Positions 4,794 through 59,634 of a DNA stretch of 64,000 nucleotides are shown here, piece by piece. The translations under genes and the position numbers were made by a program. Every line of letters starts with the position of its first letter. Position 1 is the stretch's first letter. This DNA is from an uncultured Clostridia bacterium (lineage in GTDB: Bacteria; Bacillota; Clostridia; Christensenellales; Borkfalkiaceae): contig CANRDX010000005.1 in the NCBI GenBank assembly GCA_947629485.1, positions 1 through 64,000 on the forward strand, given 5' to 3'. A model generated the notes under the pieces. The model ran no database searches, was not told where the DNA came from, and saw only the letters and a program-made list of their open reading frames with translations.

Positions 4794-6001
4794 AAGAATT
4801 CTTTCGGACGAGAAGGGGGAAATTCGCCGTCCTTCTCTTCATACTCCTTCTCACGGCGGCGATCGGCGCAGGGATTTTTTCGCACAGCGAGGTAGGAGCG
4901 CGCGCCGTCTCCGCGGAAAGCGAAGCGATGCAGGCGCTTAAAGAGGAGATCAAAGAGCTTCTCGCCTCGCTCGATACAAAGGAGCTGCAAAACTACCTCG
5001 ATACGCTCTCCTCGATGAAGGGCGTCTCCGTGACGGACAAGCTCATGAGCATCATCACGGGCGATCTCTCGCTCGATTACGGCTCGCTCTTTGAGTCCGC
5101 CCTCGGGCTTGTGTGGGAAGAGGGGAAGGTGATGCTGCCCGCTTTTGCCGTCGTTTTGGCGGTCGCTCTGCTCTGTGGGATACTAAACTCCGCAAAAAAC
5201 GGGTTTTTGCAAAGTACTACGTCAGACATAATCCATTTCGTAGGCTATATCTCCGTGGCGGCAGTCGTCCTCGCCTCCCTTCTCGGCGTGCTCAAAACGG
5301 GTTTTTCCGCCATCGTCGGAATGAAAAAGCAGATGGAGATCGTCTATCCCATTTTGCTTACGCTCATGGCGGCAAGCGGGGGATCCGTATCGGCGGGGGT
5401 CTACCGTCCCGCCGTCGCCTTTTTGAGCGGGACGATCGTCGAGCTGTTTTCTTCCGTCGTTTTGCCCGCCGCGGTCATCGTCATTGTCTTGGCGTTCGTC
5501 GGCAATCTTTCGAGCGACGTGCGTACGGAGAAACTCGGCGAGCTTTTTAAGAGCGTCTCAAAATGGCTTATCGGCCTTACTTTGGTGCTTTTCAGCCTAT
5601 TTCTCACCGTGCAGGGCATCACTTCCGCCCAATACGACGGTCTTTCGCTTCGCGCGATCAAGTATATCGTCTCGGGTTCCGTTCCCATCGTCGGCAATTT
5701 TCTCTCCGGGGGAATGGACATTGTCATTGCGGGCAGCGCGCTCATCAAGAACGCCGTCGGCTCCTTTTCCCTGTTTTTGCTTGCGGGAACGCTGTTGAAG
5801 CCCGTCATGCTCTTTGCGGCATTTCAGCTTTTTCTGCGCGTCTGCGCCGCGGCGACGGAGCCTGTCGGCGGGAAAATCTCCTCATTTCTCTCCGAAGTGG
5901 CGAAAAACAGCGGCTATTTCCTCGCCGCGCTCCTCTGCATCGCCTTTCTCTATTTTCTCACGATCGTCCTGCTCATCTGTTCCTCGGGGGTCATCTACTG
6001 A
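4790..6001 (+). CDS. spoIIIAE: Stage III sporulation protein AE
   Basis: A 403-residue polytopic membrane protein with a cleavable-looking N-terminal segment and about seven further helices; the GNFLSGG and LLAGTLLKPV regions match the family. It is the large transmembrane core of the SpoIIIA complex. Residues 142-147 (Ser-Thr-Thr-Ser-Asp-Ile) are encoded by a copy of the short inverted repeat found elsewhere in the window (5213-5234), with the codons AGT, ACT, TCA and ATA that stand out against neighbouring GC-ending codons. The reading frame is intact. It overlaps spoIIIAD and abuts spoIIIAF. Confidence 0.95.
   Translation: MKEFFRTRRGKFAVLLFILLLTAAIGAGIFSHSEVGARAVSAESEAMQALKEEIKELLASLDTKELQNYLDTLSSMKGVSVTDKLMSIITGDLSLDYGSLFESALGLVWEEGKVMLPAFAVVLAVALLCGILNSAKNGFLQSTTSDIIHFVGYISVAAVVLASLLGVLKTGFSAIVGMKKQMEIVYPILLTLMAASGGSVSAGVYRPAVAFLSGTIVELFSSVVLPAAVIVIVLAFVGNLSSDVRTEKLGELFKSVSKWLIGLTLVLFSLFLTVQGITSAQYDGLSLRAIKYIVSGSVPIVGNFLSGGMDIVIAGSALIKNAVGSFSLFLLAGTLLKPVMLFAAFQLFLRVCAAATEPVGGKISSFLSEVAKNSGYFLAALLCIAFLYFLTIVLLICSSGVIY
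5213..5234 (+). repeat. Inverted-repeat family copy 1, inside spoIIIAE
   Basis: AGTACTACG-TCAGA-CATAATCC. It agrees with the copy in dxs at 19 of the first 20 positions apart from two substitutions at positions 5 and 19, and lies in the same codon phase. The repeat is sense-oriented relative to the gene. Confidence 0.7.
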
Positions 6002-6459
6002 TGAAAACGTATATTCTCGCCGTCGCGGGGGTCATTTTGCTCTCCGCCGTCCTTACGATGATCGCCCCGAGCGGAAGGATGGGGAAGTTCATCAAGGGCT
6101 CGATGAAGCTGTTCATTCTCGTCGTCATGATATCGCCCGTCGTGAGCTGGGTGAAGGGCGGAACGCTCGATCTTTCCGCCGCTTCCAAGATCGCGTCGGA
6201 CGAGGAATACCTTCGCGCCTGCGCGGAAAAGCTCGCAGAGGAGGACGAGGCGGAGATCTCCGCGTTCGTGGCGGAGGAATTTTTGGTGGAATGCGACGTA
6301 GAGGTCGCTCGCAAGACGGACGCATATTTTACGCGGGAAAAAATTCGCATCTTTGTGCGGGGCGACGGAATAAACGCGGAGGACGGGCATAAACATATCT
6401 TGACCGATATCCGTGAGGCGGTTGAGGCGCGTTACGGAACGGAGACGGAGGTAACGTGA
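6001..6459 (+). CDS. spoIIIAF: Stage III sporulation protein AF
   Basis: A 152-residue protein with two N-terminal membrane helices (about 4-20 and 33-52) and a soluble C-terminal alpha/beta domain thought to be ring-forming, like its neighbour SpoIIIAG. The motif SGRMGKFIKGSMKLFILVVM-like and the ISPV turn fit the family. ATG 6001 is chosen because it directly follows the spoIIIAE stop and starts at the first membrane segment. The stop overlaps the GTG of spoIIIAG. Confidence 0.9.
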   Translation: MKTYILAVAGVILLSAVLTMIAPSGRMGKFIKGSMKLFILVVMISPVVSWVKGGTLDLSAASKIASDEEYLRACAEKLAEEDEAEISAFVAEEFLVECDVEVARKTDAYFTREKIRIFVRGDGINAEDGHKHILTDIREAVEARYGTETEVT

Positions 6460-6818
6460 CGTTCTCGCTCTCCAAGATCAAGGAACTGTTCAAAAATAAG
6501 ATCTTCCGGCTCTGTCTCCTCGCTGTGATCGCGCTCCTTCTCCTGCTCGCCGCGTATAAGGTTTTCGCGGGCGGGGGGAAGGAGAGCGGAAAATATACGC
6601 CCACGGAGCGCGAGGAGAGGCTGCTCATCCTGCTCACGGGGATCGAGGGCGTCAAGGACGCGAAGGTCATGATCACCGAAGAGGACGGGGTCGCCGTCGG
6701 CGCGGTCATCCTCTTCGAGGGGGAGGACGGCTTCCTCGTCAGAATGCGCCTTGCCGAGGTCGCGGCTACCGCCCTGAACATCGGCAAAAGCGCCGTCGTG
6801 GTCTATGCGGCGTCTTAA
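6456..6818 (+). CDS. spoIIIAG: Stage III sporulation protein AG
   Basis: A 120-residue protein with one N-terminal membrane helix (about 18-37) and a C-terminal ring-building-motif domain in the intermembrane space: EERLLILLTGIEGVKDAKVMITEEDG...EVAATALNIGKSAVVVY. SpoIIIAG forms the large ring of the channel in Bacillus. It is much shorter than Bacillus SpoIIIAG (229 residues), lacking the insertion that forms the beta barrel. GTG start at 6456 overlaps the spoIIIAF stop. This short form is common in Clostridia as far as I recall. Confidence 0.9.
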   Translation: MTFSLSKIKELFKNKIFRLCLLAVIALLLLLAAYKVFAGGGKESGKYTPTEREERLLILLTGIEGVKDAKVMITEEDGVAVGAVILFEGEDGFLVRMRLAEVAATALNIGKSAVVVYAAS

Positions 6819-6852
6819 TTCGTAAATCTTATAATTATAAGGAGATAGTACT

Positions 6853-7338
6853 ATGTCGAACACCAAGAAAATCGCACTTATGTCCACACTTGTATTGCTT
6901 CTTGCAGTGACGGCCATTTTCAACTTCGTCCTTGCGGGAACCAAGAGCCAGTCCGTTCAGAGCGGCGCGAGCGTTCAGGCGAATTACTTCACGACGTTCC
7001 GCGCCGAACGGAACACGACGCGCAGCGAGGAATTTGTCCAGCTTGACAGCGTGATCTCCGCCTACGAAGTGGGCAGCGAGGAGTACACAGCCGCCGTCGC
7101 GAGAAAGCAGGAGCTTGTGGAGCTTATGGAGGATGAACTCGTCATGGAGACCATCATCAAAGCGCTCGGATTTTCCGACGCGGCGGTCGCGATCGGCGAC
7201 AACGAGAACATCAACGTGTTCATCAATTCCGACGAGCTGACGGGGACGACGGTCACGAAAATCTTTTATGCTCTCGAAATCGAACACAATATCCGCAACG
7301 GAAACATCATAATTATGCCTGTCTATGCGGAAAGTTGA
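6853..7338 (+). CDS. spoIIIAH: Stage III sporulation protein AH
   Basis: A 161-residue bitopic protein that meets SpoIIQ in the space between mother cell and forespore. Membrane helix about 7-28, then a YscJ/FliF-like domain with ARKQELVELMEDELVMETIIKALGFSDAAVAIGDNENINVFI and the terminal NIIIMPVYAES. An AAGGAG ribosome binding site precedes ATG 6853; it lies in the right arm of a 14-base palindrome (6828-6841) that could weakly cover it. It is the last gene of the operon; no SpoIIQ is encoded nearby. Confidence 0.95.
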   Translation: MSNTKKIALMSTLVLLLAVTAIFNFVLAGTKSQSVQSGASVQANYFTTFRAERNTTRSEEFVQLDSVISAYEVGSEEYTAAVARKQELVELMEDELVMETIIKALGFSDAAVAIGDNENINVFINSDELTGTTVTKIFYALEIEHNIRNGNIIIMPVYAES

Positions 7339-7368
7339 GAAAAAACAGTAGTAAATTCAAAAATTATG

Positions 7369-7377
7369 TGCTATAAT
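7369..7377 (+). promoter_or_regulatory. Extended -10 promoter of the yqhY-nusB operon
   Basis: TGCTATAAT with TATAAT at 7372-7377; no good -35 is seen, as expected for an extended -10. A GAGGAG ribosome binding site follows before ATG 7397. It lies 30 bases past the spoIIIAH stop. Confidence 0.6.
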
Positions 7378-7396
7378 GCTTGTTGAGGAGCACATT

Positions 7397-7786
7397 ATGG
7401 CAAGTATCAGATACAATAACTCCAACGGACAGAAGGGGAAGATCACTTATAACTCGGATATCGTAAGCGGGATCGTGGTTTTGAGCCTGAAAGAAACGGA
7501 GGGGATCGAGCTGATCCCTTCCAAGAGCAAGGGCATTAAGATCTGCTTTGAGAAAGAGGGCGTCTTCGTAGACATCTCCGTGATAGCGCACTACGGATAC
7601 AGCGTTCCCGATCTGGCGTTCCGCATCCAGCAGTCCATAAAGCAGATGGTGGAATCCATGACGAAGTACAAGATCGCAAAAGTGGACGTCCACGTGCAGA
7701 GCGTCGTGTTCCCCGCGCCCGCGCCTGCCGCGGAAAACCCTGCGGAACCCGTCGCGGAAGATGCGGACGAGAAAAAGAATCATTGA
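7397..7786 (+). CDS. yqhY: Asp23/Gls24 family protein (YqhY-like)
   Basis: A 129-residue cytoplasmic protein of the Asp23/Gls24 (DUF322) family: GKITYNSDIVSGIVVLSLKETEGIELI at the start and VPDLAFRIQQSIKQMVESMTKYKIAKVDVHVQSV at the end of the domain, followed by a low-complexity Ala/Pro/Glu tail. In Bacillus yqhY lies between accC and nusB and affects acetyl-CoA carboxylase activity; here no acc gene is adjacent but nusB follows. ATG 7397 is preferred over an upstream ATG because GAGGAG sits eight bases before it. Precise function is not known from sequence. Confidence 0.85.
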   Translation: MASIRYNNSNGQKGKITYNSDIVSGIVVLSLKETEGIELIPSKSKGIKICFEKEGVFVDISVIAHYGYSVPDLAFRIQQSIKQMVESMTKYKIAKVDVHVQSVVFPAPAPAAENPAEPVAEDADEKKNH

Positions 7787-7790
7787 ACGC

Positions 7791-7818
7791 TCTCCCTTTC
7801 CCTTTCGGGAAGGGGAGA
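7791..7818 (+). other. Hairpin between yqhY and nusB
   Basis: Arms TCTCCCTTTCCC (7791-7802) and GGGAAGGGGAGA (7807-7818) pair over 12 positions with one G-U, loop TTTC. No T run follows, so it is more likely an RNA processing or stability structure than a terminator. Confidence 0.5.
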
Positions 7819-7837
7819 ATCGCGTTAAGGAGCACTT

Positions 7838-8230
7838 ATGAGAAGCGATGCGAGAGAGGCGGCTTTCAAAGTTATTTTTGCGCGTCTTTTGGGCGGAGAC
7901 TGCCCTGCGACGACGCGCGCCGCCCTCTATAAACAGGCGAAACTGAAAGAGGACGAAAAGGAGTTTTCCGAATCGCTCATTAAGTCCGTCGAAGAACACG
8001 GCGAAGAACTTTCCGCCATCCTCGACGAGAAGATCACGCGCTATGCGGACTATCGCGTCTACACGGCGGATCGGGCGATCCTCCTTCTCGCGCTCGCGGA
8101 GATATCCTATTTCGGCGAGATCCCGCCCGTCGTTTCCGTTTCGGAAGCGGTGGCGCTCGCGCGCAAATTCTCCACGGAAAATTCCGCGGACTTCGTGAAC
8201 GGCGTGCTCGGAGGAGTCATCAACGCATGA
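7838..8230 (+). CDS. nusB: Transcription antitermination factor NusB
   Basis: A 130-residue all-helical RNA-binding protein that, with NusE (S10), binds boxA in rRNA leader transcripts. The start MRSDAREAAFKVIFARLLGGD, RYADYRVYTADRAILLLALAEISY and the end IPPVVSVSEAVALARKFSTENSADFVNGVLGGV are the family hallmarks, and the length is typical. AAGGAG precedes the ATG. It overlaps folD by four bases, keeping the usual nusB-folD-ispA-dxs-tlyA order of Firmicutes. Confidence 0.96.
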   Translation: MRSDAREAAFKVIFARLLGGDCPATTRAALYKQAKLKEDEKEFSESLIKSVEEHGEELSAILDEKITRYADYRVYTADRAILLLALAEISYFGEIPPVVSVSEAVALARKFSTENSADFVNGVLGGVINA

Positions 8231-9063
8231 AGATCCTCGACGGAAAAACGACGGCGCAAGCCGTGCGCGCAGAACTCAAAGAGCGCGTTTTCGCGCTGGC
8301 AAAGAGAGGGGTCACCGTCGGTCTTGCCGTGCTGCTCGTCGGCGAAGATCCCGCTTCCAAGATCTATGTCGGGAACAAGATAAAGGCGTGCGAAGAGGCG
8401 GGGATCCGCTCGTTCTCCCGCGTCTTGCCCGAAAATGCGACGGAGGAAGAGGCGGAGGCTGCCGTAGAAGGCTTTGCCGCCGATCCGTCCGTCCACGGCA
8501 TCCTCGTTCAGCTTCCCCTGCCGCCTCATCTCGACGAGCGGAAAATTCTTTCGCGCATTCCCGCGGAAAAGGACGTGGACGGGTTTTCCGACGAAAATTG
8601 CGGCAGGCTCTTCAAGCGTCTGCCCTGCATTCCCGCTTGCACGCCGCTCGGCGTGATGGAACTTCTCCGCCGCTACGAGATTTCCGTTTGCGGGAAACGC
8701 GCCGTCATCGTCGGGCGGAGCAATACGGTGGGGCGGCCTATGGCGGCGCTTCTATTGAACGCCGACGCGACGGTGACGGTCTGCCACTCGAAAACGAAGG
8801 ATCTGGAAAATATCTGCCGCGAAGCCGATATTCTCGTCGCCGCGGTGGGCAAGCCGCATTTCATCACCCCCGAGATGGTGAAGGAGGGCGCCGTCGTCAT
8901 AGACGTCGGCATCAGCCGCGTCGACGGGAAGATACGCGGCGACGTCGATCCCGCCGCATGGGAAAAGGCGTCGTTCGTCACCCCCGTGCCCGGCGGCGTC
9001 GGGCCGATGACGGTCGCCATGCTCCTCAAAAATACCGTGGACGCGGCGGAGCGCGGGCTATGA
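8227..9063 (+). CDS. folD: Bifunctional methylenetetrahydrofolate dehydrogenase/cyclohydrolase
   Basis: A 278-residue FolD that interconverts 5,10-methylene-, methenyl- and 10-formyl-tetrahydrofolate using NADP. The Lys of the family motif is in the KIYVGNKIKACEEAGI stretch, followed by HGILVQLPLPPHL, PEKDVDGF (here AEKDVDGF), VIVGRSNTVGRPMAALLL and the C-terminal PGGVGPMTVAMLLKNT. Full length. Start overlaps nusB and the stop overlaps ispA (ATGA), indicating translational coupling. Confidence 0.97.
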   Translation: MKILDGKTTAQAVRAELKERVFALAKRGVTVGLAVLLVGEDPASKIYVGNKIKACEEAGIRSFSRVLPENATEEEAEAAVEGFAADPSVHGILVQLPLPPHLDERKILSRIPAEKDVDGFSDENCGRLFKRLPCIPACTPLGVMELLRRYEISVCGKRAVIVGRSNTVGRPMAALLLNADATVTVCHSKTKDLENICREADILVAAVGKPHFITPEMVKEGAVVIDVGISRVDGKIRGDVDPAAWEKASFVTPVPGGVGPMTVAMLLKNTVDAAERGL

Positions 9064-9890
9064 CGTTTGCGGAGCAATACGATACATATCGGCTCTTTAT
9101 GGAAGAGGATCTGAAAGCGCGCTGTCAGCATTGGGACGTAAGTCCCGAGATCCTCTCCGAGAGCATGCGTTATTCCCTGCTTGCGGGCGGCAAACGGATC
9201 CGCCCCGTGCTCTTTTTCGCCGCCCTCGACGCGCTCGGCGCGGACTGGAAGGGAGAAGCGGCGCTCGCCGCCGCGTTGGAATGTATCCACACCTATTCGC
9301 TGATCCACGACGATCTGCCCGCCCTCGATAACGACGATTTCCGCCGCGGAAAGCCCTCCAACCATAAGGTCTACGGCGAAGCAAACGCCATTCTTGCGGG
9401 CGACGGACTGCTCTCCTATGCCTTCGAGCTGTTGTTGAAGGAGGCGGAGAAGGGCAGCGCGCACCTCGAAGCGGCGCGTATCCTTGCGCATGCCGCGGGC
9501 GTCTATGGGATCGTCGCGGGGCAATCCGCCGATCTGCTTTGGTCGGATGTGAAGGCGGGGGAGAGCGAACTGCTCTTTCTCTATGCGAACAAGACGGGGC
9601 GGATGTTCCGCGCTCCGCTCGCGATGGCGGCATGCCTTGCGAAAGGCGACGTCCCGCTTTGGAGTCGGTTCGGCGAACGGCTCGGGATCCTCTTTCAACT
9701 GACGGACGATCTTCTCGACCGCGGCGCGGCGGGCGAAGAGAAGCGGCTCACCGCCGTAAAGGTCTACGGACTTGCGCGCGCCGAAGAGCTTGCTTCGTCC
9801 TGCGCGCAGGAGTGCTGCGCCTTAGCGCAAAGGCTGGGCGCGCCCTTCTTGCGGGATCTTGCGGAAGAGATCGAAAGACGAAAAGCGTAG
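9060..9890 (+). CDS. ispA: Polyprenyl (farnesyl/geranyl) diphosphate synthase
   Basis: A 276-residue short-chain trans-prenyltransferase of the IspA type, adding IPP to DMAPP/GPP. First Asp-rich motif HDDLPALDNDD has the DDxxxxD spacing of bacterial FPP synthases, with RRGKPS after it; second motif is QLTDDLLD. GGKRIRP is present near residue 41. The C-terminal third is somewhat short and the total is about 20 residues below E. coli IspA, but both metal sites are intact. It overlaps folD and is followed by dxs, so isoprenoid genes are clustered. Confidence 0.93.
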   Translation: MTFAEQYDTYRLFMEEDLKARCQHWDVSPEILSESMRYSLLAGGKRIRPVLFFAALDALGADWKGEAALAAALECIHTYSLIHDDLPALDNDDFRRGKPSNHKVYGEANAILAGDGLLSYAFELLLKEAEKGSAHLEAARILAHAAGVYGIVAGQSADLLWSDVKAGESELLFLYANKTGRMFRAPLAMAACLAKGDVPLWSRFGERLGILFQLTDDLLDRGAAGEEKRLTAVKVYGLARAEELASSCAQECCALAQRLGAPFLRDLAEEIERRKA

Positions 9891-9911: not shown

Positions 9912-9921
9912 CGGTATCAAT

Positions 9922-11634
9922 ATGAGAAATATTACGCCCGCAGAGGTGAAAAACAGCTCTCTGCAACAATTAAATGCGCTGTGCGAACAGCTTCGCGAAG
10001 AGATCTTCCGCACCGTCTCCATGTGCGGGGGGCACCTCTCTTCCAATCTCGGCACGGTGGAACTCACCGTCGCCCTGCACCGCGTGTTCGATTTTCCGCG
10101 CGATAAGATCATTTTCGACGTCGGGCACCAATGCTATGCGCACAAACTGCTTTCGCAAAGGGCCGAACTCTTCCATACGCTGCGCAAGGAAGGGGGACTT
10201 TCGGGTTTCCCCAAACGCGAGGAGAGCGAATACGATTGCTACGGCACGGGGCATGCGGGAACGGCGATCTCCGCCGCGCTCGGGTTCGCGAAAGCCCGCG
10301 ATCTCAACGGCGGGCAATACGAAGTCGTCGCGCTTGTGGGCGACGGTTCCTTCCACAACGGGCTGGTTTTCGAGGCGCTCAACAGCCTGCGCATTCTGAA
10401 AACGCGCATTCTCATCGTTCTCAACGACAACGGAATGTCGATCTCGCCCACGGTCGGCGGCTCGCACGAAGTGTTTGAAGCGTTGAGATCGGGGAACGCC
10501 TGCGACGACGACGTTCGCCTGTTCGAGCGGTACGGGCTTACCTACATGGGCGTCGTCAACGGGAACAGCCTCGAAGAACTGCTTCCCGCCCTCGAACGCG
10601 CCAAAGAGGAACTGAAAGAGGGGAGCGTGCTTCTGCACGTCTCCACAAAGAAGGGGCTTGGCTATCCGTTCAGCGAAAACGCCCCGACGGAAACGCACGG
10701 CCTCAGCCCCAAACCCGCCCCGAAGAGAGAATACGCCTCGGCGCTCGGGGAGGAACTTTCCCTGCTTGCGCAAAGGGATCCGCGCGTCGTTGCGGTCACC
10801 GCCGCCATGACGGACAGTCTCGGACTTCGCGGATTCTTTAACGCCTTCCCTTCGCGCGCCTACGACGTGGGGATCTGCGAGGAACACGCCGCGGTGCTTT
10901 CCGCCTCGCTTGCGGCGGCAGGGATGAAGCCGTACTACGCCATCTATTCCACCTTCCTTCAACGCGCGTTCGACGAGATCGTCCACGACGTCTGCGGGCA
11001 GGATCTGCCCGTCGTGTTCTGTATCGACCGCGCGGGCGTGACGGGGCCGGACGGGGAAACGCATCAGGGAATTTTTGACCTTTCCTATCTCTCCTTTATC
11101 CCCAACCTTGCGATAGGGATCCCCGCGAACATCGGGGAATTCCGCGCAATGCTCCGCGCGAGCGTAGACTACGCTGCGCCGCTCGCCATCCGCTACCCGC
11201 GGGCGGGGGAGGAAGGGAGCGACGCCCCGATCGAAATCGGAAAATCGGAGATTTTACATAGTAGTACGTCAGACATACTACTGATTGCGGCGGGGGAAAG
11301 ATGCTTGGATCTTGCGCGCAGATTGCTCGAACGCGCGCAGCGTAGCGGATTTTCGTTTACGCTCGTCAATCTTCGCTTTTTGAAGCCGCTCGACGTTGAG
11401 CTTCTTCAAACGCTTTCTCAAAAATACATCGTCACGTTGGAGGACAACGTCCTTTGCGGCGGCCTTTCCGACGCCGTCAACCGCTTCTTCCTCAACGAAA
11501 ACCGCACGATCGCCAATTTCGGCTACCGCGACTGCTTCATTCCGCAGGGCGAACCCGACTCTCTCGCCCGTAAGTACGGGTTGAACGAAGAGGAGATCTG
11601 GCGCACGTTGGAGGAGTTCCATGCGCGCGGATAA
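9922..11634 (+). CDS. dxs: 1-deoxy-D-xylulose-5-phosphate synthase
   Basis: A 570-residue thiamine diphosphate enzyme making DXP from pyruvate and glyceraldehyde 3-phosphate, first step of the MEP pathway. It shows FDVGHQCYAHKLL, the ThDP motif GDGSFHNGLVFEALNS...LNDN, EEHAAVLSASLA and THQGIFDLSYL. It is about 50 residues shorter than E. coli Dxs, mostly in the linker between the first two domains. ATG 9922 is chosen at the family start; no ribosome binding site is obvious. Codons 447-452 (Ser-Ser-Thr-Ser-Asp-Ile) are a copy of the short inverted repeat. It overlaps tlyA by 14 bases. Confidence 0.94.
   Translation: MRNITPAEVKNSSLQQLNALCEQLREEIFRTVSMCGGHLSSNLGTVELTVALHRVFDFPRDKIIFDVGHQCYAHKLLSQRAELFHTLRKEGGLSGFPKREESEYDCYGTGHAGTAISAALGFAKARDLNGGQYEVVALVGDGSFHNGLVFEALNSLRILKTRILIVLNDNGMSISPTVGGSHEVFEALRSGNACDDDVRLFERYGLTYMGVVNGNSLEELLPALERAKEELKEGSVLLHVSTKKGLGYPFSENAPTETHGLSPKPAPKREYASALGEELSLLAQRDPRVVAVTAAMTDSLGLRGFFNAFPSRAYDVGICEEHAAVLSASLAAAGMKPYYAIYSTFLQRAFDEIVHDVCGQDLPVVFCIDRAGVTGPDGETHQGIFDLSYLSFIPNLAIGIPANIGEFRAMLRASVDYAAPLAIRYPRAGEEGSDAPIEIGKSEILHSSTSDILLIAAGERCLDLARRLLERAQRSGFSFTLVNLRFLKPLDVELLQTLSQKYIVTLEDNVLCGGLSDAVNRFFLNENRTIANFGYRDCFIPQGEPDSLARKYGLNEEEIWRTLEEFHARG
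11260..11281 (+). repeat. Inverted-repeat family copy 2, inside dxs
   Basis: AGTAGTACG-TCAGA-CATACTAC, with perfect seven-base arms AGTAGTA/TACTACT if one base beyond is counted. It is in the same codon phase as the spoIIIAE copy and uses AGT, AGT, TCA, ATA and CTA codons unlike the surrounding gene. Confidence 0.7.
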
Positions 11635-18342: not shown

Positions 18343-18364
18343 TGTATTATGCGTGACATAATAT
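18343..18364 (+). repeat. Inverted-repeat family copy 3, after dacF
   Basis: TGTATTATG-CGTGA-CATAATAT, 13 bases past the stop, same orientation as the gene. Here the pairing extends outward: 18339-18351 pairs with 18357-18369 over 13 positions with one G-U. Confidence 0.75.
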
Positions 18365-22777: not shown

Positions 22778-22799
22778 AGTACTCTGTGCGGCATATTAC
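22778..22799 (+). repeat. Diverged inverted-repeat copy directly before rluB
   Basis: AGTACTCTG-TGCGG-CATATTAC matches the family frame with a third loop type and 17 of 22 positions of the 59613 copy. It fills the gap between a GGGGAG ribosome binding site (22767-22772) and ATG 22800; without it the spacing would be the usual five bases. Confidence 0.45.
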
Positions 22800-24550: not shown

Positions 24551-25755
24551 TGCGCGAATCGTTTGAAGCGGGCGGCGTAGATCGCGGGAATGGTGACTTC
24601 GATCTCGGCGCCGTCGTCCGTATATCTTACGGTGCGTTCCGCGAGCAAATTCCGCACCGCGCCGTATTCCGCCATTTGAGGGTAGGGGACGAAGAGGGTC
24701 GTCTCGACGAATTCGTCTTTGAGCGTCTCAAAGATGCGCCGTTTCAGTTCGTCCAGCCCCGCGTGCGTCTTGGCGGAGATGCGCACATATTCTTTGGGGA
24801 AGCGCACGTTCTCCGCTCTGTCGCATTTGTTCATGACGACAAGATAGGGGGAATCGAACCCGAGATCTTTGAGCGTCGAAAGGGTGGTTTCCATCTGCAT
24901 GCGGTATTCTCCCGAAGCGTCGCACACGATGAGGGCGAGGTCGCAGTTCAAAGCGCTTTCGAGCGTAGACTTGAACGCCTCGATGAGGTGGTGGGGAAGA
25001 TCCTGTAAAAAACCCACGGTATCCACTAAAAGGAAGGGAAGTCCTTCGATCTCGAACACGCGGGAAGTGGGATCGAGCGTCGCGAAAAGAGCGTCTTTCA
25101 CAAAGACGTCCGCGCCCGTCAACGCGTTTTCGAGCGTGGATTTCCCCGTATTCGTATAGCCGACAAGAGCGATGGTTTTGACGCGCTCTTTTTTTCTGCG
25201 CACGGCGAGCAGCGTGCGGCGACGGCTGATCTCCTCCAACTTCTGTTCCAGCGCGTGGATACGGGCGCGGATGTGCCTTCTGTCCGTTTCCAATTTGCTT
25301 TCGCCCGGGCCGCGCGTCCCGATCCCTCCGCCCAGCCTCGAAAGCGCGCTTCCCTTGCCTCTCAAACGGGGATAGAGATATTTATACTGCGCAAGTTCCA
25401 CTTGGATCTTCCCTTCGCTGCTCTCGGCGCGCAGGGCGAAGATATCGAGGATCAAAGTCGTCCTGTCGATGACCTTCCGATCTCCCAATGCTTTGGAGAT
25501 GTTCAGCGTCTGGGAAGGGGAAAGCTCGCCGTTGAAGAGGACGGTGACGGTTTCGTCGAATGTTGAGAGGATTTCGGCGATCTCGGCGAGTTTTCCTTCG
25601 CCGATGAAGGTAGCGGGGTGGATCTCGCGGATATTTTGGAACGTCGCACCCAAATATTCGGCGCCCGCGCTCTGAATGAGCGCGACGGCTTCCTCATGCA
25701 AAACGCGCGCATTTTCGCCGAATACGGGCTGGATCACATAGACGGATTCCGTCAT
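24544..25755 (-). CDS. hflX: Ribosome-splitting GTPase HflX
   Basis: A 403-residue GTPase that binds the 50S subunit and splits or rescues stalled ribosomes. The N-terminal HflX domain includes LFNGELSPSQTLNISKALGDRKVIDRTTLILDIFALRA, the linker has RGKGSALSRLGGGIGTRGPGE, and the G domain has G1 VGYTNTGKST, G3 DTVGF and G4 NKCD. Full length. Its start overlaps the recombinase stop (ATGA), so the two are co-transcribed. Confidence 0.95.
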   Translation of the reverse strand: MTESVYVIQPVFGENARVLHEEAVALIQSAGAEYLGATFQNIREIHPATFIGEGKLAEIAEILSTFDETVTVLFNGELSPSQTLNISKALGDRKVIDRTTLILDIFALRAESSEGKIQVELAQYKYLYPRLRGKGSALSRLGGGIGTRGPGESKLETDRRHIRARIHALEQKLEEISRRRTLLAVRRKKERVKTIALVGYTNTGKSTLENALTGADVFVKDALFATLDPTSRVFEIEGLPFLLVDTVGFLQDLPHHLIEAFKSTLESALNCDLALIVCDASGEYRMQMETTLSTLKDLGFDSPYLVVMNKCDRAENVRFPKEYVRISAKTHAGLDELKRRIFETLKDEFVETTLFVPYPQMAEYGAVRNLLAERTVRYTDDGAEIEVTIPAIYAARFKRFAQK

Positions 25756-26810
25756 TCGTCGTCCTCCGACTTGTGCAATTTCACTTTCCCCGCGACGGCG
25801 CGCCGCTTATCCTCCGTGATGGCGGCATAGTGCTTCCGCGTCGTGTTGACGTCTTTGTGCCCCAAGACGTCGGCGACGATGTAGATATCTCCCGTCTCGC
25901 GATAGAGGGCGGTACCGTAAGTGGAGCGGAGCTTGTGCGGCGTGATTTTTTTGAGCGGGGTAGAGATGCTTGCGTATTTTTTGACAAGGTTCTCCACGGC
26001 GCGGACGGTGATGCGTTTATATTGCAGGGAGAGAAAGAGCGCGTGTTCGCTCTGCGGGACCTTCGGATCTTCTTCCTTTTGGGCGAGATAGGCTCCGAGC
26101 GCGTCGCCCACTTCTTCGGAAAAATATAAGATCGCCTGATTTCCGCCCTTGCGCGTGACGACGAAGGAATTTGTCTTGAAATCGATGCTCTCGTTGTTCA
26201 GCCCCACAAGCTCGGAGATACGGATGCCCGTGCCGAGAAAGAGGGTGAGAATGGCGGTGTCGCGGATCTTGGTGCGGGCGTGATATCCCTCCATATGGCG
26301 GGAAAGTCCGCGCCCCAATTCCGCGGTGTCGAGAAGATCGGAAATTTCGTCGCCTTCGAGACGGACGATCTCTTTTTCATGCAATTTGGGCGTCGAGACC
26401 TTCGCCGTATTGTTGACTTCGATCAGTCCCTTATTGAAAAAGTATTTGAAAAGGGAACGGACGGTGGAGAGCTTGCGCGCCTTTGCGCGCTCGTCGCAGG
26501 AGAGGCGGCGATCGCCGTAGCGATAGTTGGAGAGATAGGCGAGGAAAATTTCGATATCGGTATCCGTGATGCGTTCGAGATCTTCGAGGGTGAGCGTTTT
26601 GACTTCTTTGCCGCGGCAGACCTTGCGGCAGAGAAAATCGAAAAAAATGCGAAGATCGTAGCAGTAGTTGAGGCGGGTGAGGGTGCTCGTCCTGCCTTCG
26701 ACGCCGCGAAAGAAATCTTCGCAGAAGGGAGGAAGTTCTTCGAGAAGGGAGTCGATTTTGTCGAGATTGCGCAGGTTTCTATCCTGATAGTAGTTGTCGG
26801 AAGTTTTCAT
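25752..26810 (-). CDS. Tyrosine recombinase/integrase (XerC/D-like)
   Basis: A 352-residue site-specific recombinase. The catalytic domain shows the first Arg in LGTGIRISELVGL, HKLRSTYGTAL with His and Arg, GHKDVNTTRKHYA with the last His and the Tyr nucleophile. An N-terminal SAM-like core-binding domain is present. About 50 residues longer than XerC/XerD. It is co-transcribed with hflX rather than with mobile-element genes, so a housekeeping dimer-resolution role is more likely than phage integration. ATG 26810 is chosen: it sits ten bases after the -10 of a consensus promoter and lacks a ribosome binding site. Confidence 0.88.
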   Translation of the reverse strand: MKTSDNYYQDRNLRNLDKIDSLLEELPPFCEDFFRGVEGRTSTLTRLNYCYDLRIFFDFLCRKVCRGKEVKTLTLEDLERITDTDIEIFLAYLSNYRYGDRRLSCDERAKARKLSTVRSLFKYFFNKGLIEVNNTAKVSTPKLHEKEIVRLEGDEISDLLDTAELGRGLSRHMEGYHARTKIRDTAILTLFLGTGIRISELVGLNNESIDFKTNSFVVTRKGGNQAILYFSEEVGDALGAYLAQKEEDPKVPQSEHALFLSLQYKRITVRAVENLVKKYASISTPLKKITPHKLRSTYGTALYRETGDIYIVADVLGHKDVNTTRKHYAAITEDKRRAVAGKVKLHKSEDDE

Positions 26811-26820
26811 GGCAAAAATG

Positions 26821-26849
26821 ATTATAGCACGAAGGGAGGGAAATGTCAA
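26821..26849 (-). promoter_or_regulatory. Consensus sigma-A promoter of the recombinase-hflX operon
   Basis: On the minus strand TTGACA (26844-26849), exactly 17 bases, TATAAT (26821-26826): a perfect consensus. The RNA would begin about four bases before ATG 26810. Confidence 0.9.
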
Positions 26850-27191
26850 TTTTACGAAGAGTTATAGGGGAAAAATTTTATCGGGAACAGAAGTAAAGCG
26901 CAGAGGGCGGTAAAAAATCGCTCCCAAAAGATATAGTAAACTATTCGCAAAATGCTGCTTTTACGAATAGTAATGGGCAAAAAAGGCGAAAATAGGAGCA
27001 AAAAATCGACTTTTTCTACTTTTTTGCAAAAAAAAAATTTACGTATGAGCGGCGATCCTTCGCCCGACGCAAATTTTTATTTTTTTATCTCAAATCTTCA
27101 CACGCATTTTATTTATTTTTTCGCCGCGGCATATGCGCGGCGAGCATTTTTTTGGTTTACATTTTCAGGCGCGATCGGTTTCGGGGCGTCG
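26850..27191. other. AT-rich intergenic region with inverted repeats, possible small RNA
   Basis: No protein gene is evident. Visible structures are ACTATTCG/CGAATAGT (26940-26947 with 26964-26971), GCAAAAAAG/CTTTTTTGC (26977-26985 with 27019-27027), a small GGCGA/TCGCC hairpin before T-rich sequence near 27051-27085, and a terminator at 27121. Since both flanking genes are on the minus strand, a plus-strand terminator suggests an unannotated plus-strand RNA, but no clear promoter is seen. Confidence 0.35.
27121..27152 (+). terminator. Plus-strand intrinsic terminator without a known gene
   Basis: TCGCCGCG (27121-27128) and CGCGGCGA (27136-27143) pair perfectly with loop GCATATG, followed by GC and seven to eight T residues. 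Confidence 0.7.
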
Positions 27192-27231
27192 GTATTATGT
27201 CACGCATAGTATTTATGTCTGACATACTATT
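27192..27231 (-). repeat. Inverted-repeat family copies 4a/4b in tandem after the amylase gene
   Basis: On the minus strand a TCAGA-loop copy (27214-27231, starting in the amylase stop codon) is followed by a CGTGA-loop copy (27192-27213). Both loop types thus occur side by side, in the orientation of the gene. Confidence 0.75.
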
Positions 27232-33087: not shown

Positions 33088-34194
33088 TTACAGCATTCTG
33101 CCCTTTGAGACGAAGTACGGCAATGCCTCGCAACCCGCAAGCCTTCGGTTATCGCGGATCACGACGTTCTTGTCCGTAATGACGCAGCCGAGATGCACGT
33201 TGGTGCCGATGACGGTATCCTGCATGATGATGGAATCCTTCACGACGCTCCCCTTTCCGACCCTTACGCCGCGGAAGAGGATGCTGTTTTCCACCCTTCC
33301 CTCGATGATACAGCCGTCGGAGATGAGAGAATTCACGACCGACGCGCCCGTGAGATATTTGGACGGCGCGGAATCGCGGATCTTCGTATAGATATCGCGC
33401 GCGCCGAAAAGCTCGTCGCGCACGCTCTTATCGAGCAGGCGCATGCTGTGGCTGTAATAATCCTGTATCGTGTTGACCGAGGCATGGTAGCCCTCGAATT
33501 TGTAGGCGTACAATTTCAGCGTATCCACATTTTTCGCAAGGATATCCCTGCCGAAACTCGAAAAGCCCCTCGTGACCGCGTCCTGAATGGTGTTGATGAG
33601 GAATTCGCGGCTCATGACCATGACGTTGACGTAGAGGTTGCAAGTCCCCTTTACGCGCGGGTTGATTTTGAGTTCGCGCACCCTTCCCGTTTCGTCGGGA
33701 GAGAGGATGATATAGTACGACGAATCGACGTGCGCTTCCTCATGGTAGACCATCGTGATATCCGCGCCCTTTTCCTCATGGAAACGCACGATGTCCGCGA
33801 TGTCCATGCGCGCGATGCCGTCGCAATCGGAGATCACGACGTGATCTTCGCTTCTGTGGTTCAAGAATCCCGTGATGCCCATGAGCGCTTCGAGGCGGGT
33901 CGTATAGGGCGCGTCCGTCTCGTCAGAATAGGGCGGGAGCAGGATGATGCCGCCGTCCTTTCTCGCGAGATCCCAATCCTTCCCGCTCCCGAGGTGGTCG
34001 ATGAGCGATTGATAGTTGTTCTTGGTGACAAGCCCCACCGTCGTGATCCCGGAGTTCACCATATTCGAGAGCGCAAAGTCGATGAGACGGTATCTTCCCC
34101 CGAAGGGTACCGAAGCCATCGTGCGGTGGCGGGAGAGTTCGGGCAGGTTCTCGTCGCCGATGTGAGAAAAGATCACGCCCACTGTGTTTGCCAT
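33088..34194 (-). CDS. glgD: Glucose-1-phosphate adenylyltransferase subunit GlgD
   Basis: A 368-residue GlgD, the regulatory-type partner of GlgC in Firmicutes. It keeps the nucleotidyltransferase fold (VPFGGRYRLIDFALSNMVNSGI) and the C-terminal left-handed beta helix, but the N-terminal glycine-rich active-site loop of GlgC (AGGQGSRL) is replaced, as is usual for GlgD. ATG 34194 is one base after the glgC stop, with GGGGAG before it. Confidence 0.95.
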   Translation of the reverse strand: MANTVGVIFSHIGDENLPELSRHRTMASVPFGGRYRLIDFALSNMVNSGITTVGLVTKNNYQSLIDHLGSGKDWDLARKDGGIILLPPYSDETDAPYTTRLEALMGITGFLNHRSEDHVVISDCDGIARMDIADIVRFHEEKGADITMVYHEEAHVDSSYYIILSPDETGRVRELKINPRVKGTCNLYVNVMVMSREFLINTIQDAVTRGFSSFGRDILAKNVDTLKLYAYKFEGYHASVNTIQDYYSHSMRLLDKSVRDELFGARDIYTKIRDSAPSKYLTGASVVNSLISDGCIIEGRVENSILFRGVRVGKGSVVKDSIIMQDTVIGTNVHLGCVITDKNVVIRDNRRLAGCEALPYFVSKGRML

Positions 34195-45637: not shown

Positions 45638-45659
45638 GTATTATGTCACGCAAAATACT
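45638..45659 (-). repeat. Inverted-repeat family copy 5, after the FAD oxidoreductase gene
   Basis: Minus strand AGTATTTTG-CGTGA-CATAATAC, starting three bases past the stop codon. The left arm has a T-T mismatch, yet the sequence is kept. Confidence 0.75.
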
Positions 45660-54527: not shown

Positions 54528-54605
54528 ATTTCCGATATAATTATAACGCATTTGCGCCCGCACGTCAAGACTTTTGTGTGAGTTTTCGCAAAATATCTTT
54601 CTGCG

Positions 54606-55184: not shown

Positions 55185-57708
55185 ACCAACTCCTGCCGAT
55201 ATGCACGTCCGCAATGAGCGGAACGCGGAGCGAGATCGCCTGCTCCATCTCCTCTTTCAGCATCGCGGCGGCGCGTTCGGCTTCGTCCTCGGGGGCGTCG
55301 AGAACAAGCTCGTCGTGCACTTGCAAAACAAGCCTTGCGCGGAAACAGTCTTTTTTCAGCCGCTCCGCCACGCGCAGCATCGCGAGCTTGATGATATCCG
55401 CCGCGCTCCCTTGCAGGGGCATGTTCATGGCGGCGCGCTCGCCGAACGAGCGCAGGTTGAAATTCGACGATTTGATCTCGGGAATGATGCGTTTGCGCCC
55501 GAGAACGGTCGTCACAAATCCGTCCTCTTTGGCGCGCTGCACGTTCTCATCCATATACGTCTTGACTTCGGGATGCGTCTCGAAGTATTTTTTGATGAAA
55601 TTCTGCGCCTCGGTGCCCGAGCAGTTCAGATCCTTCGCAAGCCCAAAGGCGCTCATGCCGTAGATGATGCCGAAGTTCACCGTCTTTGCCCTTCTGCGCA
55701 TTGCAGGCGTCACGTCCGAGAGCGGAACGCCGAAGATACGGGCCGCGGTCGCGGCGTGGATATCTTCTCCCGCGCGGTACGATTCGAGCAGCGTACGGCA
55801 CTCCGAAAAGTGCGCGAGCAACCTAAGCTCGATCTGCGAATAGTCCGCGTCGACAAGCACATTCCCCTCGCGGGCGATGAAAATTTTTCTGAGTTCCTTC
55901 CCCTCTTCCGTACGGACGGGGATATTTTGCAAATTGGGATTGGCGCTCGAAAGCCTTCCCGTGGTCGTCATCGTCTGATTGTAGGTCGTATGAACGACGT
56001 CGCCCACGACGAGCGGTCTGATGCCGTCGATATAGGTGGATTGCAGTTTTTGTAGTTCGCGGTAGCGCAAAATGAGCCGGACGATCTCGTGCTCCTCCGC
56101 AAGTTTTTCCAGCACGTCCGCGTTGGTGGAGTAGCCACCCCGCACGTTCTTTTTCGCCCCCCGCGGATCCAAGCCCAATCTGTCGAACAGGATCTCGGAG
56201 AGCTGGAAAGGAGAATTCAGATTGAAATGGTCGACGTCCGCAAGCGCGAAAATGCGCTTGGAGAGCGCGTTCAGCTCGGAGCGGAAGCGTTCGGAGAATT
56301 CGGGGAATTTATCCGTATCGACGCGCACCCCGTAGCGTTCCATGTCCAAAAGAACGTAGACGAGGGGCAATTCGAGATCGCGGTAGAGCTGCGCTTCCGC
56401 CGTATTTTCCGTCTGCTCTTTCGCCTCTCGAAAGGCGCGTTCGATCGCCGCGGCGCAGTGATCTTCGCCCAGCCGATAATACTTTGCAAGCTCCCTCCCG
56501 CTTTCGGGGCGAAGGTTGGAATCGCCGAGATAGCGAAGAAGTGTAACGTCCTCGGCGTCGCATGCAAAGGGTACGCCGATGTCGTCGAGCATATGCGCGG
56601 TCGCCTTGATATCCGCGACGACGGCCCTCTTCCCTTTGGAAAAGAGCGCAAGAAAGAGCGGTTTCAGCTCGCCGAGGAAGAACCCCGGGGAGAGAAAATT
56701 ATCGCGTAGTGGCAGTTTATATTCCGTGCCGCCGACGCCGAGAAAGACGGCGTCCTTCTCGCGGCAGAATACGAATTCTTCGGCGCTTTCCGCAAGGCGG
56801 AGAAGCGCGGCGAGGTCGGTGCACTCCTCGACCTCGCCGCACGAAGGCTGTTCTTCGGGGAAAAATCCGCTGTCCAGAAGAGAACGGAATTCCAAACGCG
56901 AAAAGAATTCGCGCGCCTCCTCGGGGAAGGGCAATCCGAGCGCGCACTGCGCAAGGGTAAGCTCCACGGGCACGTTGCAGTCTATGGTCGCAAGCTTTTT
57001 GGAAAAATACGCGTCGTCGTGCCCGACCATGAGCTTGTGATGCAACCCCGCCTCTACCTCATCGAGATGGGCGTATATCCCGTCGAGATCGTTGTATTTG
57101 TGCAGAAGGTTGAGCGCGCCCTTCGGTCCGATCCCCTTCACCCCGGGGATATTGTCGGAAGCGTCGCCCATCAGCGCCTTCTCGTCGATGATTTGCGCGG
57201 GAGAAAGCCCCACTTTTTCGTAGAAGTTCTCCTCCGTCAGGCGGTCGAGGTCGCTCACGCCCTTTTTTGTAAAACAGACGTCAACGTTCCTTTTGACAAG
57301 TTGATAGGAATCGCGGTCGCCCGTATAGATCAACACATGCGTATCGTCGAAGCGACGCGAGAGCGTGCCGATGATGTCGTCCGCCTCATACCCTTCCAAT
57401 TCGACCGTCCTGATCTTCATCGCATGAAGCAATTCTTTGAGAACGGGCACCTGCCTGACAAGTTCTTCGGGCATGGGTTTGCGCGTCGCCTTGTAGCCTT
57501 CGTACATTTTATGGCGGAAGGTCGGCGCATGCACGTCGAACACGACCGCAAAATACTGCGGCTTTTCGTCGTCTATGATCTTGAAGAGCAGTTTTACAAA
57601 GCCGAATATCCCGTTGGTGGGAAGTCCGTCGCGCGTCGTAAACAATTTCATCGCATAAAATGCGCGGTTGAGAAGGCTGTTGCCGTCGATGAGAATCAGC
57701 TTGTCCAT
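55171..57708 (-). CDS. polA: DNA polymerase I
   Basis: An 845-residue family A polymerase. The N-terminal 5'-3' exonuclease (DKLILIDGNSLLNRAFYA..., DGLPTNGIFGF, GDRDSYQLV, GVKGIGPKGALNLL) is complete. The middle domain lacks the DxE exonuclease motif, so proofreading is probably absent as in other Firmicutes. Polymerase motifs: A DYSQIELRLLAHF, B RRAKTVNFGIIYGMSAFGLA, C VHDELVLD. The ATG lies six bases after a TAAAAT -10 with no usable ribosome binding site. Confidence 0.97.
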   Translation of the reverse strand: MDKLILIDGNSLLNRAFYAMKLFTTRDGLPTNGIFGFVKLLFKIIDDEKPQYFAVVFDVHAPTFRHKMYEGYKATRKPMPEELVRQVPVLKELLHAMKIRTVELEGYEADDIIGTLSRRFDDTHVLIYTGDRDSYQLVKRNVDVCFTKKGVSDLDRLTEENFYEKVGLSPAQIIDEKALMGDASDNIPGVKGIGPKGALNLLHKYNDLDGIYAHLDEVEAGLHHKLMVGHDDAYFSKKLATIDCNVPVELTLAQCALGLPFPEEAREFFSRLEFRSLLDSGFFPEEQPSCGEVEECTDLAALLRLAESAEEFVFCREKDAVFLGVGGTEYKLPLRDNFLSPGFFLGELKPLFLALFSKGKRAVVADIKATAHMLDDIGVPFACDAEDVTLLRYLGDSNLRPESGRELAKYYRLGEDHCAAAIERAFREAKEQTENTAEAQLYRDLELPLVYVLLDMERYGVRVDTDKFPEFSERFRSELNALSKRIFALADVDHFNLNSPFQLSEILFDRLGLDPRGAKKNVRGGYSTNADVLEKLAEEHEIVRLILRYRELQKLQSTYIDGIRPLVVGDVVHTTYNQTMTTTGRLSSANPNLQNIPVRTEEGKELRKIFIAREGNVLVDADYSQIELRLLAHFSECRTLLESYRAGEDIHAATAARIFGVPLSDVTPAMRRRAKTVNFGIIYGMSAFGLAKDLNCSGTEAQNFIKKYFETHPEVKTYMDENVQRAKEDGFVTTVLGRKRIIPEIKSSNFNLRSFGERAAMNMPLQGSAADIIKLAMLRVAERLKKDCFRARLVLQVHDELVLDAPEDEAERAAAMLKEEMEQAISLRVPLIADVHIGRSWYDAK

Positions 57709-57714
57709 ACCCCT

Positions 57715-57743
57715 ATTTTACCACAGGCGCGCCGTTTTTGCAA
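57715..57743 (-). promoter_or_regulatory. Sigma-A promoter of polA, leaderless
   Basis: On the minus strand TTGCAA (57738-57743), 17 bases, TAAAAT (57715-57720). Seven bases on is the A of ATG 57708. Confidence 0.8.
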
Positions 57744-57877
57744 GGGACTTGCGCAGTTCGCGCCCATTAAATTCCAAAAAATTGATATCGCCCTTCGGCT
57801 TCCGCAGGCGGCTTTTCGCCTCGGAGGAGATCACGTGATTGCAATTCACAAAATAAGAAATAATTTTACAAAAGTAC

Positions 57878-57906
57878 TTGCAAAATTTCCGACGTCGATG
57901 TATAAT
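57878..57906 (+). promoter_or_regulatory. Sigma-A promoter of the TGS-uridine kinase-like gene
   Basis: TTGCAA (57878-57883), 17 bases, TATAAT (57901-57906). The leader is about 33 bases, with only a weak TAGG site before ATG 57946. Confidence 0.85.
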
Positions 57907-57945
57907 GTGGTACTAACCAAATTTTTAGAGTAAGTAGGTATAGGT

Positions 57946-59604
57946 ATGATAAGGGTACATTTCAACGGGAAAGAAGTCTCCGTCAAGGAGGGAACGCGGG
58001 TCTTGGAACTCGTGGAAAAGAGCGAAAGGAAGAATCTCGTCGTCTGTCAGGTGGGCGCGCAGGTCAAGGAACTTCACTATATCCTTTCCGAAAAAAACGA
58101 CGGCATGACGATCAAACTTCTCAATCTCAGCAACGCCGAGGCGGGCAGAGCGTACAGCGCAAGCCTCCGCTACATCGTCGCGATGGCGTTCTATAACATC
58201 TATCCCGATGTAAAGATCAGGTTTTCCTATAACGTCTCGCGCTCCATCTCCTGTCAGGCGCTTACGAAGAGCTTCAATATGGCGCGGGCGGTCGACGCCA
58301 TTACGCGGGAAGTTCAGCGCATCGTGGATGAAGATCTTCCCATCGAGCGCGTCACGGTGACCATCGAAGAGGCGACGGAGATCTATAAGAAATTCCACCT
58401 CGACGACAAGATCGAGATCCTCAAATACCGCCCCGACAACACCGTCCACCTCTATAAGTGCGGCGGTTACTATAACTATCTGCATAGTTATATGGTTCCC
58501 TCGACGGGCTGTATCCGCAACTACACCATCACGCCGTACAGCCCCGGGCTTATCATCCAATATCCCCGCCACGATTTAGACGCGAACATTCCCGAATTCC
58601 GTGAAGAATCCACCTACTGCAAAACATTGCAGCGGGCTTACGCATGGGCGGAGAAGGCGTCGATCCAGACGGTCTGCGATATCAACCGCAAGATCGACCG
58701 CGGCGAAACGCTCGACTTCGTGCAGCTCTGCGAAGCGCACCACAACAAGCAGCTCGCCGAACTCGGCGACATGATCGAGAAGGAGATCGAAAACGTCAGG
58801 CTCGTCGCCATTGCGGGTCCAAGTTCGAGCGGAAAGACGACGTTCTGCAACAGGCTCAGGATCGAACTCCTCTCCCGCGGGATAAATCCTGTCACCATTT
58901 CGCTCGACGATTACTACTTCGAGAAGGCGAAGATCTGCGAAATTCAAGGGGAAAATGCCGATGAACTCGATCTCGAACACATCAACTGCCTCGATATCGA
59001 GCTGTTCAACAAGGATCTCTTCGACCTCATCAACGGAGAGGAAGTCACGCTTCCCCGCTTCAACTTTATGATCGGAAAGCGGGAAGCGGGCAAGACGATC
59101 CGCGTCGAACAGAACGTGCCCATTATCATCGAAGGCATCCACGCTCTGAACGAGAAACTTACGCGCTCCATTCCCAAACACCAGAAGTTCAAGATCTATA
59201 TCGCCCCGCACGCCCAGCTCAACATCGACAATCACTCCCCGCTCTCCATCACGAGCGCAAGGCTGATCCGCCGCATCGTGCGCGATATGAATTTCAGGAA
59301 TTGCCCCGCCGCAAACACCATCGACATGTGGCAGTCGGTAAGAAACGGCGAATTCAAATGGATCTACCCCAACCAGGAGAACGCGGACTATGTATTCAAT
59401 TCCAGCCTCGGCTACGAGCTTTGCGTGCTCAAAAAACAGGCGATGGCGGCGCTCACGAAGATCACCACGTCCGATCCGCAGTATCTCGTCGCGAACAGGC
59501 TCATCAAGATCTTGAAGTACTTCCGCGAGATCGAAGATGAATCGCTCATCCCCTGCAACTCCCTTCTTCGGGAATTTATCGGGGGAAGCTGCTTCAAGGT
59601 TTGA
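57946..59604 (+). CDS. TGS-domain nucleoside (uridine) kinase-like protein
   Basis: A 552-residue cytoplasmic protein. Residues about 1-65 resemble the TGS domain of threonyl-tRNA synthetase (MIRVHFNGKEVSVKEGTRVLELV), about 70-245 resemble its SAD-like editing region (but without the full HxxxH/CxxxH metal set that I could find), and about 275-500 form a uridine kinase/phosphoribulokinase domain with P-loop GPSSSGKTTF and the IIIEGIHALN stretch. Proteins of this layout are common in Clostridia and called nucleoside kinases; the true substrate is not settled. An inverted repeat and a strong terminator follow. Confidence 0.88.
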   Translation: MIRVHFNGKEVSVKEGTRVLELVEKSERKNLVVCQVGAQVKELHYILSEKNDGMTIKLLNLSNAEAGRAYSASLRYIVAMAFYNIYPDVKIRFSYNVSRSISCQALTKSFNMARAVDAITREVQRIVDEDLPIERVTVTIEEATEIYKKFHLDDKIEILKYRPDNTVHLYKCGGYYNYLHSYMVPSTGCIRNYTITPYSPGLIIQYPRHDLDANIPEFREESTYCKTLQRAYAWAEKASIQTVCDINRKIDRGETLDFVQLCEAHHNKQLAELGDMIEKEIENVRLVAIAGPSSSGKTTFCNRLRIELLSRGINPVTISLDDYYFEKAKICEIQGENADELDLEHINCLDIELFNKDLFDLINGEEVTLPRFNFMIGKREAGKTIRVEQNVPIIIEGIHALNEKLTRSIPKHQKFKIYIAPHAQLNIDNHSPLSITSARLIRRIVRDMNFRNCPAANTIDMWQSVRNGEFKWIYPNQENADYVFNSSLGYELCVLKKQAMAALTKITTSDPQYLVANRLIKILKYFREIEDESLIPCNSLLREFIGGSCFKV

Positions 59605-59612
59605 AGATACAA

Positions 59613-59634
59613 AGTACTATGCGTGACATAATAC
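59613..59634 (+). repeat. Inverted-repeat family copy 6, after the TGS-kinase gene
   Basis: AGTACTATG-CGTGA-CATAATAC, eight bases past the stop and directly before the terminator. It is the copy closest to the family consensus. Confidence 0.8.

Follow-up and report, generated by a model that had tools for sequence, protein, structure and literature searches.

The closest described counterpart of the system considered here is matS/MatP of the Enterobacterales and Vibrio, in which a short site recurs some 20 times and in the terminus region only; for matS, a 13-bp site in 23 copies within 800 kb has been described (PMC3330122). Here we describe a family of palindromic sites, 21-bp dyads, which shares these features and was found in a stretch of 64,000 nt from an uncultured Clostridia bacterium (contig CANRDX010000005.1, assembly GCA_947629485.1), referred to throughout as the window. 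We consider it likely that a symmetric (probably dimeric) protein binds these palindromes and thereby marks a ~200–350-kb domain around the replication terminus and dif. The site differs from matS in being 21 bp long, in having its own consensus and in being denser (~1 per 13 kb), a comparison for which no search for matS itself was made. In addition, the host belongs to another phylum, its dif-like site is paired with a single recombinase, and no MatP homolog scored over cut-off (0/21 genomes). These comparisons suggest a system that may work like matS/MatP with unrelated parts.

Other described systems resemble the array in single respects. ZapT binds DNA and is enriched at the terminus of Caulobacter, a bacterium without MatP; it is of the MerR type, and its authors report no consensus motif (PMC7188993), whereas the motif here is strong. 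The motifs of RefZ in Bacillus (RBM) are nearly palindromic and conserved in position across the genus, but there are five of them, two per arm and one near oriC (PMC6657595), whereas the array described here is centered on dif. No description of a comparable terminus array in Clostridia was found in the literature searched, which covered few subscription papers.

Palindromic sites in the window and in its genome

Compilation of all copies into a symmetric matrix defined the element as a 21-bp dyad, GTAnTATG(TC/CG)-n-(GA/CG)CATAnTAC, in which each inner half-site ends in TC or CG, less often in CC or TG, and the central base is free. The initial annotation of the window had distinguished two loop types, TCAGA and CGTGA; these proved to be combinations of the two inner endings, TC or CG, around the free central base. 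The loose pattern AGTAnTATG-N5-CATAnTAC, with up to 3 mismatches, gave 15 strand-matches in the window where 0.26 were expected, and none of 100 shuffles reached 15. One match, at 34179, was chance-like (matrix score -4.2). The window holds seven matrix-supported sites and an eighth, weaker copy in tandem with one of them. The pattern search found copies at the places annotated initially, apart from the tandem partner of the copy at 27192, which did not appear at up to 3 mismatches; in register, this partner is the weaker copy at 27210–27230. The sites are listed below without strand, the genomes of relatives, all drafts, being labelled Gnnn (contigs Gnnn:Cn) and the window's own genome G000.

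5214..5234, palindromic site inside spoIIIAE (gene assigned by Pfam), score 23.7; site at the ortholog in G063, G015 and G073
11261..11281, palindromic site inside dxs, score 24.2
18344..18364, palindromic site 13 bp downstream of a dacF-like gene for a D-Ala-D-Ala carboxypeptidase (by Pfam), score 31.8; site at the ortholog in G063, G015 and G073
22779..22799, diverged palindromic site immediately before an rluB-like gene, score 19.8; ortholog without a site in 3/3 relatives
27192..27212, palindromic site ~0.25 kb from dif, score 31.0; site less than 0.4 kb from dif also in G015, G063, G073 and G007
27210..27230, second, weaker palindromic site with a 3-bp overlap with the copy at 27192, score 14.4 (13.2 with an independent matrix)
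45638..45658, palindromic site 4 bp downstream of the stop codon of a minus-strand gene for an HI0933-like FAD oxidoreductase, score 29.3; site at the ortholog in 4/4 relatives
59614..59634, palindromic site 9 bp downstream of the stop codon of a TGS/uridine-kinase-like gene, score 34.3; exact pattern match

The distribution of the sites in the draft genome to which the window belongs (1,551,665 bases in 48 contigs) was strongly uneven. The loose pattern, again with up to 3 mismatches, matched at 37 places, compared with 22 for a reversed control, and the symmetric matrix divided these places into 20 that scored above 14 and 17 that scored below 10. All 20 matrix-supported sites were on seven contigs (C3, C5, which is the window, C7, C9, C14, C15 and C25) that together make up 361 kb, or 23% of the genome (p ~2e-13, with the contigs taken as given), and there were none in the rest of the genome. 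The low-scoring matches behaved as the 23% share of these contigs predicts, with 4 of the 17 on them. Training the matrix on sites of other records alone recovered the same 20 sites, with a gap in score from 16.5 to 4.1, and a 4-Mb Markov simulation yielded no site above 14. The genome-wide excess over chance that the initial annotation anticipated was thereby borne out, with 20 of the 37 matches supported and all of these in one region. The seven contigs map to shared contigs of relatives, with some rearrangement: parts of C9, C5, C25 and C14 are on G015:C7, parts of C15, C3, C9, C14 and C5 on G025:C2, and parts of C3, C7, C25 and C14 on G009:C1. Confinement to the terminus region, a property of matS, was found both in this genome and in the density of sites around dif on the five contigs described below.

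All 37 genomes of the genus Candidatus Gallimonas that were searched had sites, with 3–32 each at no more than 1 mismatch, while the control gave 0 in 35 of them and 1 in 2. Counts for 24 genomes, drawn from as many other families of the order, were 0–3, with control counts of 0–2. Twelve further genomes, reached via loci that already matched, had 1–26 sites; one of these (G095) is apparently G018 again, and some of the counts of 1–4 are weak. Candidatus Borkfalkia faecavium had 22 sites, 12 of them (score above 18) on its 162-kb dif contig, which indicates that the family extends beyond the genus.

The dif-like site and the surrounding array

The window spans the replication terminus. Its cumulative GC skew climbs to a plateau (~30–38 kb) and then declines, and the called genes are predominantly plus-strand as far as ~23.5 kb and predominantly minus-strand thereafter, with exceptions (e.g., 57946–59604). 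The window also contains a recombinase gene, and a dif-like site identified from the region upstream of it:

25752..26849, minus strand, XerS-like tyrosine recombinase gene (Pfam Phage_integrase), likely start near 26810
26941..26970, no strand, dif-like inverted repeat CTATTCGnAAAA-N6-TTTTnCGAATAG, ~130 bp upstream of where the recombinase gene likely starts

The best NCBIfam model for the recombinase was XerS (8.3e-58, 195.8 bits), at a score below the model cut-off of 267. A recombinase gene adjacent to its site is the arrangement described for XerS and XerH (PMC5357621), and the recombinase beside the dif-like site fits it; the gene adjoins its dif here, no search for further Xer genes having been made. 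The likeness to XerS/difSL of streptococci lies in one recombinase gene beside its dif, and the differences lie in the center of the site, 6 bp here compared with 11 bp in difSL (PMC5357621), and in the sub-threshold XerS score. Across 61 genomes of the genus the dif-like site was found once in 54, twice in 2 and not at all in 5, and a reversed control was found in none. The two genomes with a double site, G008 and G075, have contamination of 5% and 7%. Patterns of the XerCD-type dif gave only scattered weak matches, none of them consistent (3/61 genomes). The dif of Borkfalkia is a variant with a CTATGCGTAAAA arm.

The palindromes were mapped relative to dif, at scores above 18, on five dif-bearing contigs of Candidatus Gallimonas (in G063, G007, G015, G073 and the window). 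On all five, sites were present on both sides of dif, at most about -100 to +140 kb from it: from -102 to +78 kb in G063, -98 to +140 kb in G007, -40 to +85 kb in G015, -21 to +85 kb in G073 and -22 to +33 kb in the window. Each contig had a site less than 0.4 kb from dif. In 25-kb bins over the five contigs, every bin up to 100 kb from dif had a density of 4–10 sites per 100 kb, and the range was 2.9–16 per 100 kb further out (to -125 and +150 kb); around the terminus there was one site every 10–15 kb, or ~1 per 13 kb. The 95 kb between -220 and -125 kb in G063 and the 20 kb between +150 and +171 kb in G007 had no site above 18. Seven sites on G073:C5, and sites on other contigs of the relatives, were left out of this map. 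The dnaA contig had no site at up to 1 mismatch in 10/10 fully listed genomes (G016 and G020 left out), and no site was seen in the stretches of two dnaA contigs that were read directly (85 kb in G073:C4, 18 kb in G000:C13).

The positions of the sites were conserved between species whose median protein identity is ~66–69%. Where a gene of the window's genome had a site inside it or within 300 bp, 54 of 72 orthologs also had one, compared with 20 of 460 where it had none (odds ratio 66); these comparisons are not all independent because neighboring genes can share one site. Within dxs, the palindrome was at the same codons in 28/30 orthologs at a score above 10, and no other offset in the gene exceeded that score; at the stricter threshold of 16, 0/3 relatives were counted. 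Synonymous variation at the dxs site was low, at 0.22 where the median was 0.49, and the site ranked 7th among 566 windows.

Contig G027:C1 had two dense clusters, with four palindromes within 130 bp (61602–61730) and three within 75 bp (143073–143147). The skew maximum of this contig was considered as a terminus and set aside, as the dif of that genome is on another contig.

Competing explanations for the palindromes

The initial annotation had put forward a mobile palindrome, an RNA signal and a binding site as explanations, and had claimed that all copies are oriented with their genes. Analyses of 298 sites, which comprise 205 distinct 21-mers from related species and hence are not independent events, separated these options. 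By simple open reading frame calls, which include spurious antisense frames, 132 sites were intergenic and nearest a 3' end, 84 were inside called genes, 70 were nearest a 5' end and 12 had no called neighbor. The placement of copies just past stop codons is therefore real but partial. The CG half came first along the host gene in only 40 of 68 asymmetric TC/CG sites, and among 12 sites on long contigs CGnGA followed the direction of the gene in 6; orientation relative to genes is random, and the claim fails by the very test that had been proposed for it. A hairpin acting at RNA 3' ends or in RNA processing would account for the many copies just past stops, but we give it practically no credence. 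The covariation expected of an RNA stem is absent from the arms: positions 4–18 were complementary in 105/298 sites (shuffle mean 124) and positions 10–12 in 156/298 (shuffle mean 180, with no shuffle that low), while positions 9–13, at 190/298, were complementary no more often than in shuffles (mean 181). The coding copy in dxs and the absence of a fixed orientation also speak against such a hairpin. A tiny mobile palindrome of the REP or RPE kind would likewise explain multiple copies, often just past stops, and the tandem clusters of G027, but it is equally hard to credit given that the same positions are occupied in divergent species and that the window's genome has no supported copy outside the terminus region. 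Neither of these two options predicts the kept positions, the absent covariation or the crowding at the terminus.

Explanations that involve a bound protein of another kind were also considered. Ordinary operators of a transcription regulator with a regulon near the terminus would have this dyad shape, and the 70 sites nearest a gene start could serve as such. This we regard as a slender prospect, as so many sites are inside genes or nearest 3' ends, the identified neighbors are functionally unrelated, and a regulon need not cluster around dif. A replication fork trap, with polar fork-arrest sites as in Tus/Ter or RTP/Ter, shares with our array the location at the terminus and is perhaps a shade less improbable. 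Most sites are somewhat asymmetric, with positions 10 and 12 mismatched more often than in shuffles, and the stronger half leans upstream relative to the majority gene direction (33/48, p 0.013) and to the host gene (27/40, p 0.04); relative to skew, the stronger half was downstream in 19/48, which is not significant. We read the upstream lean as weak because there is no such lean relative to dif. On six contigs, Borkfalkia included, the sites had no polarity to dif: the stronger half was towards dif in 29/66 sites, the central A read towards dif in 37/75, and the CG half was distal in 11/17. In addition, RTP was not found in any of 31 genomes, and no search was made for Tus. Lastly, the palindromes might be a mark for SMC unloading, or for septum placement or chromosome capture during sporulation, in the manner of RefZ, instead of a mid-cell anchor. 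We think this unlikely, although less so than a fork trap. The sites are conserved in position, some are within genes, and the window contains a spore gene, and near-palindromy and conserved positions across Bacillus are likewise described for the RefZ motifs (PMC6657595); those motifs, however, lie on the chromosome arms and near oriC, whereas the array here is centered on dif.

A binding site is favored because the positions are kept between species, the arms are not complementary beyond shuffles, and the copies crowd around the terminus; of the options in the initial annotation, it is the one that these data support. Several observations weigh against a protein-bound array that marks a terminus domain. 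Binding itself is deduced from sequence, and no binder was established by the searches for MatP, RTP and a second ParB. The borders of the domain are visible on few draft contigs and are variable: sites are absent between +85 and +125 kb in G015 but extend to +140 kb in G007, and G063 has one weak site (16.4) at -132 kb. G027:C1 has 8 sites yet does not carry the dif of that genome, and the rest of the 22 Borkfalkia sites are on many contigs. A site was lacking in 18/72 of the ortholog comparisons. Finally, the lowest synonymous variation in dxs was just upstream of the palindrome (~11242–11260, codons 461–466) and not at the site; there may be an additional DNA or RNA constraint upstream of the dxs palindrome.

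If the palindromes are binding sites of this kind, a dedicated protein would bind the array and organize the terminus region. By analogy with matS/MatP, we speculate that a dimer at some 20 sites would give this region an organization of its own, in which it might be held compact or at mid-cell with dif kept accessible to the division machinery. The outcome would be that dimer resolution by XerS at dif, and division, are served as they are by MatP at matS in E. coli.

Candidate binding proteins and implications

Known DNA-binding proteins were sought as the putative binder. The MatP family (PF06303), which had no match over cut-off in the 21 genomes, gave fragments at E 0.16–0.36 in 3 of them, and RTP (PF02334) was not found at E up to 1 in the 31 genomes. 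A second ParB-type protein, as would go with Noc sites, was not found either: there was one ParB match over cut-off in each of 13/13 genomes, and a second match in G005 was far below cut-off. A site that had replaced parS was also considered and rejected: the canonical parS, TGTTYCACGTGRAACA, differs from the dyad and is present separately, at up to 1 mismatch, in 56/61 genomes of the genus. The window's genome is one of the 5/61 without parS at that threshold; it has one ParB, and no supported palindrome on its ParB contig (C2) or dnaA contig (C13). Many genomes of the genus have a second parS-like site, TGTTTCATGTGAAACA, ~40–45 bp from the canonical parS (L168, L169 and others). The Xer recombinase itself was a further candidate, given the resemblance between the dif arm ACTATTCG and the half-site ACTATG. 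In Borkfalkia, however, the dif arm is CTATGCG, and TATG is retained in the palindromes of both genera. This candidate is disfavored because the dif arm and the palindrome do not change together, which is a weak argument. Among the 45 neighbor families listed, no gene stood out as an autoregulated regulator with a site at its promoter. Carriage by phage was likewise set aside, as the 1 exact match in a viral collection was judged to be chance, no expectation having been computed.

The foremost candidate for the binder among the domain genes that were read, and a lead rather than a result, is a predicted Cro/C1-type helix-turn-helix protein (HTH_3) of 67 residues, encoded in the terminus domain (G000:C14:18250-18453, L183). 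The protein is 98.5% identical between G000 and G063, and its conservation ranked 2/149, 6/95, 4/113 and 1/60 relative to four relatives, level with proteins of 542 and 94 residues that we took by eye for GroEL and GroES. The two strongest blocks of the dyad, as read off the matrix, are ~12 bp apart from center to center. No palindromic site was found less than 1.5 kb from the gene in 8 sequences with a close copy. The candidate distantly matches in sequence (E 2e-4) DdrO of Deinococcus, an XRE-family protein whose operator (RDRM) has the same half, TTATGTC..GACATAA (e.g., TTTTATGTCATTGACATAAT at ssb; PMC8533742). The spacer of the DdrO site is three bases, compared with one here, and DdrO sites are promoter operators of a damage regulon and not a terminus array. 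Based on this candidate, it is conceivable, if on balance doubtful, that Clostridia evolved a terminus organizer independently, in which a small phage-repressor-like Cro/C1 protein would bind the dyad array around an XerS-like dif and do the job of MatP.

A conserved, sequence-defined terminus array in Clostridia would provide a handle in two ways, as the motif can serve as bait for its binder and draft genomes allow the terminus domain to be recognized. The array also comes with a recombinase and a dif-like site for a group in which the XerCD-type dif pattern gave no consistent match.

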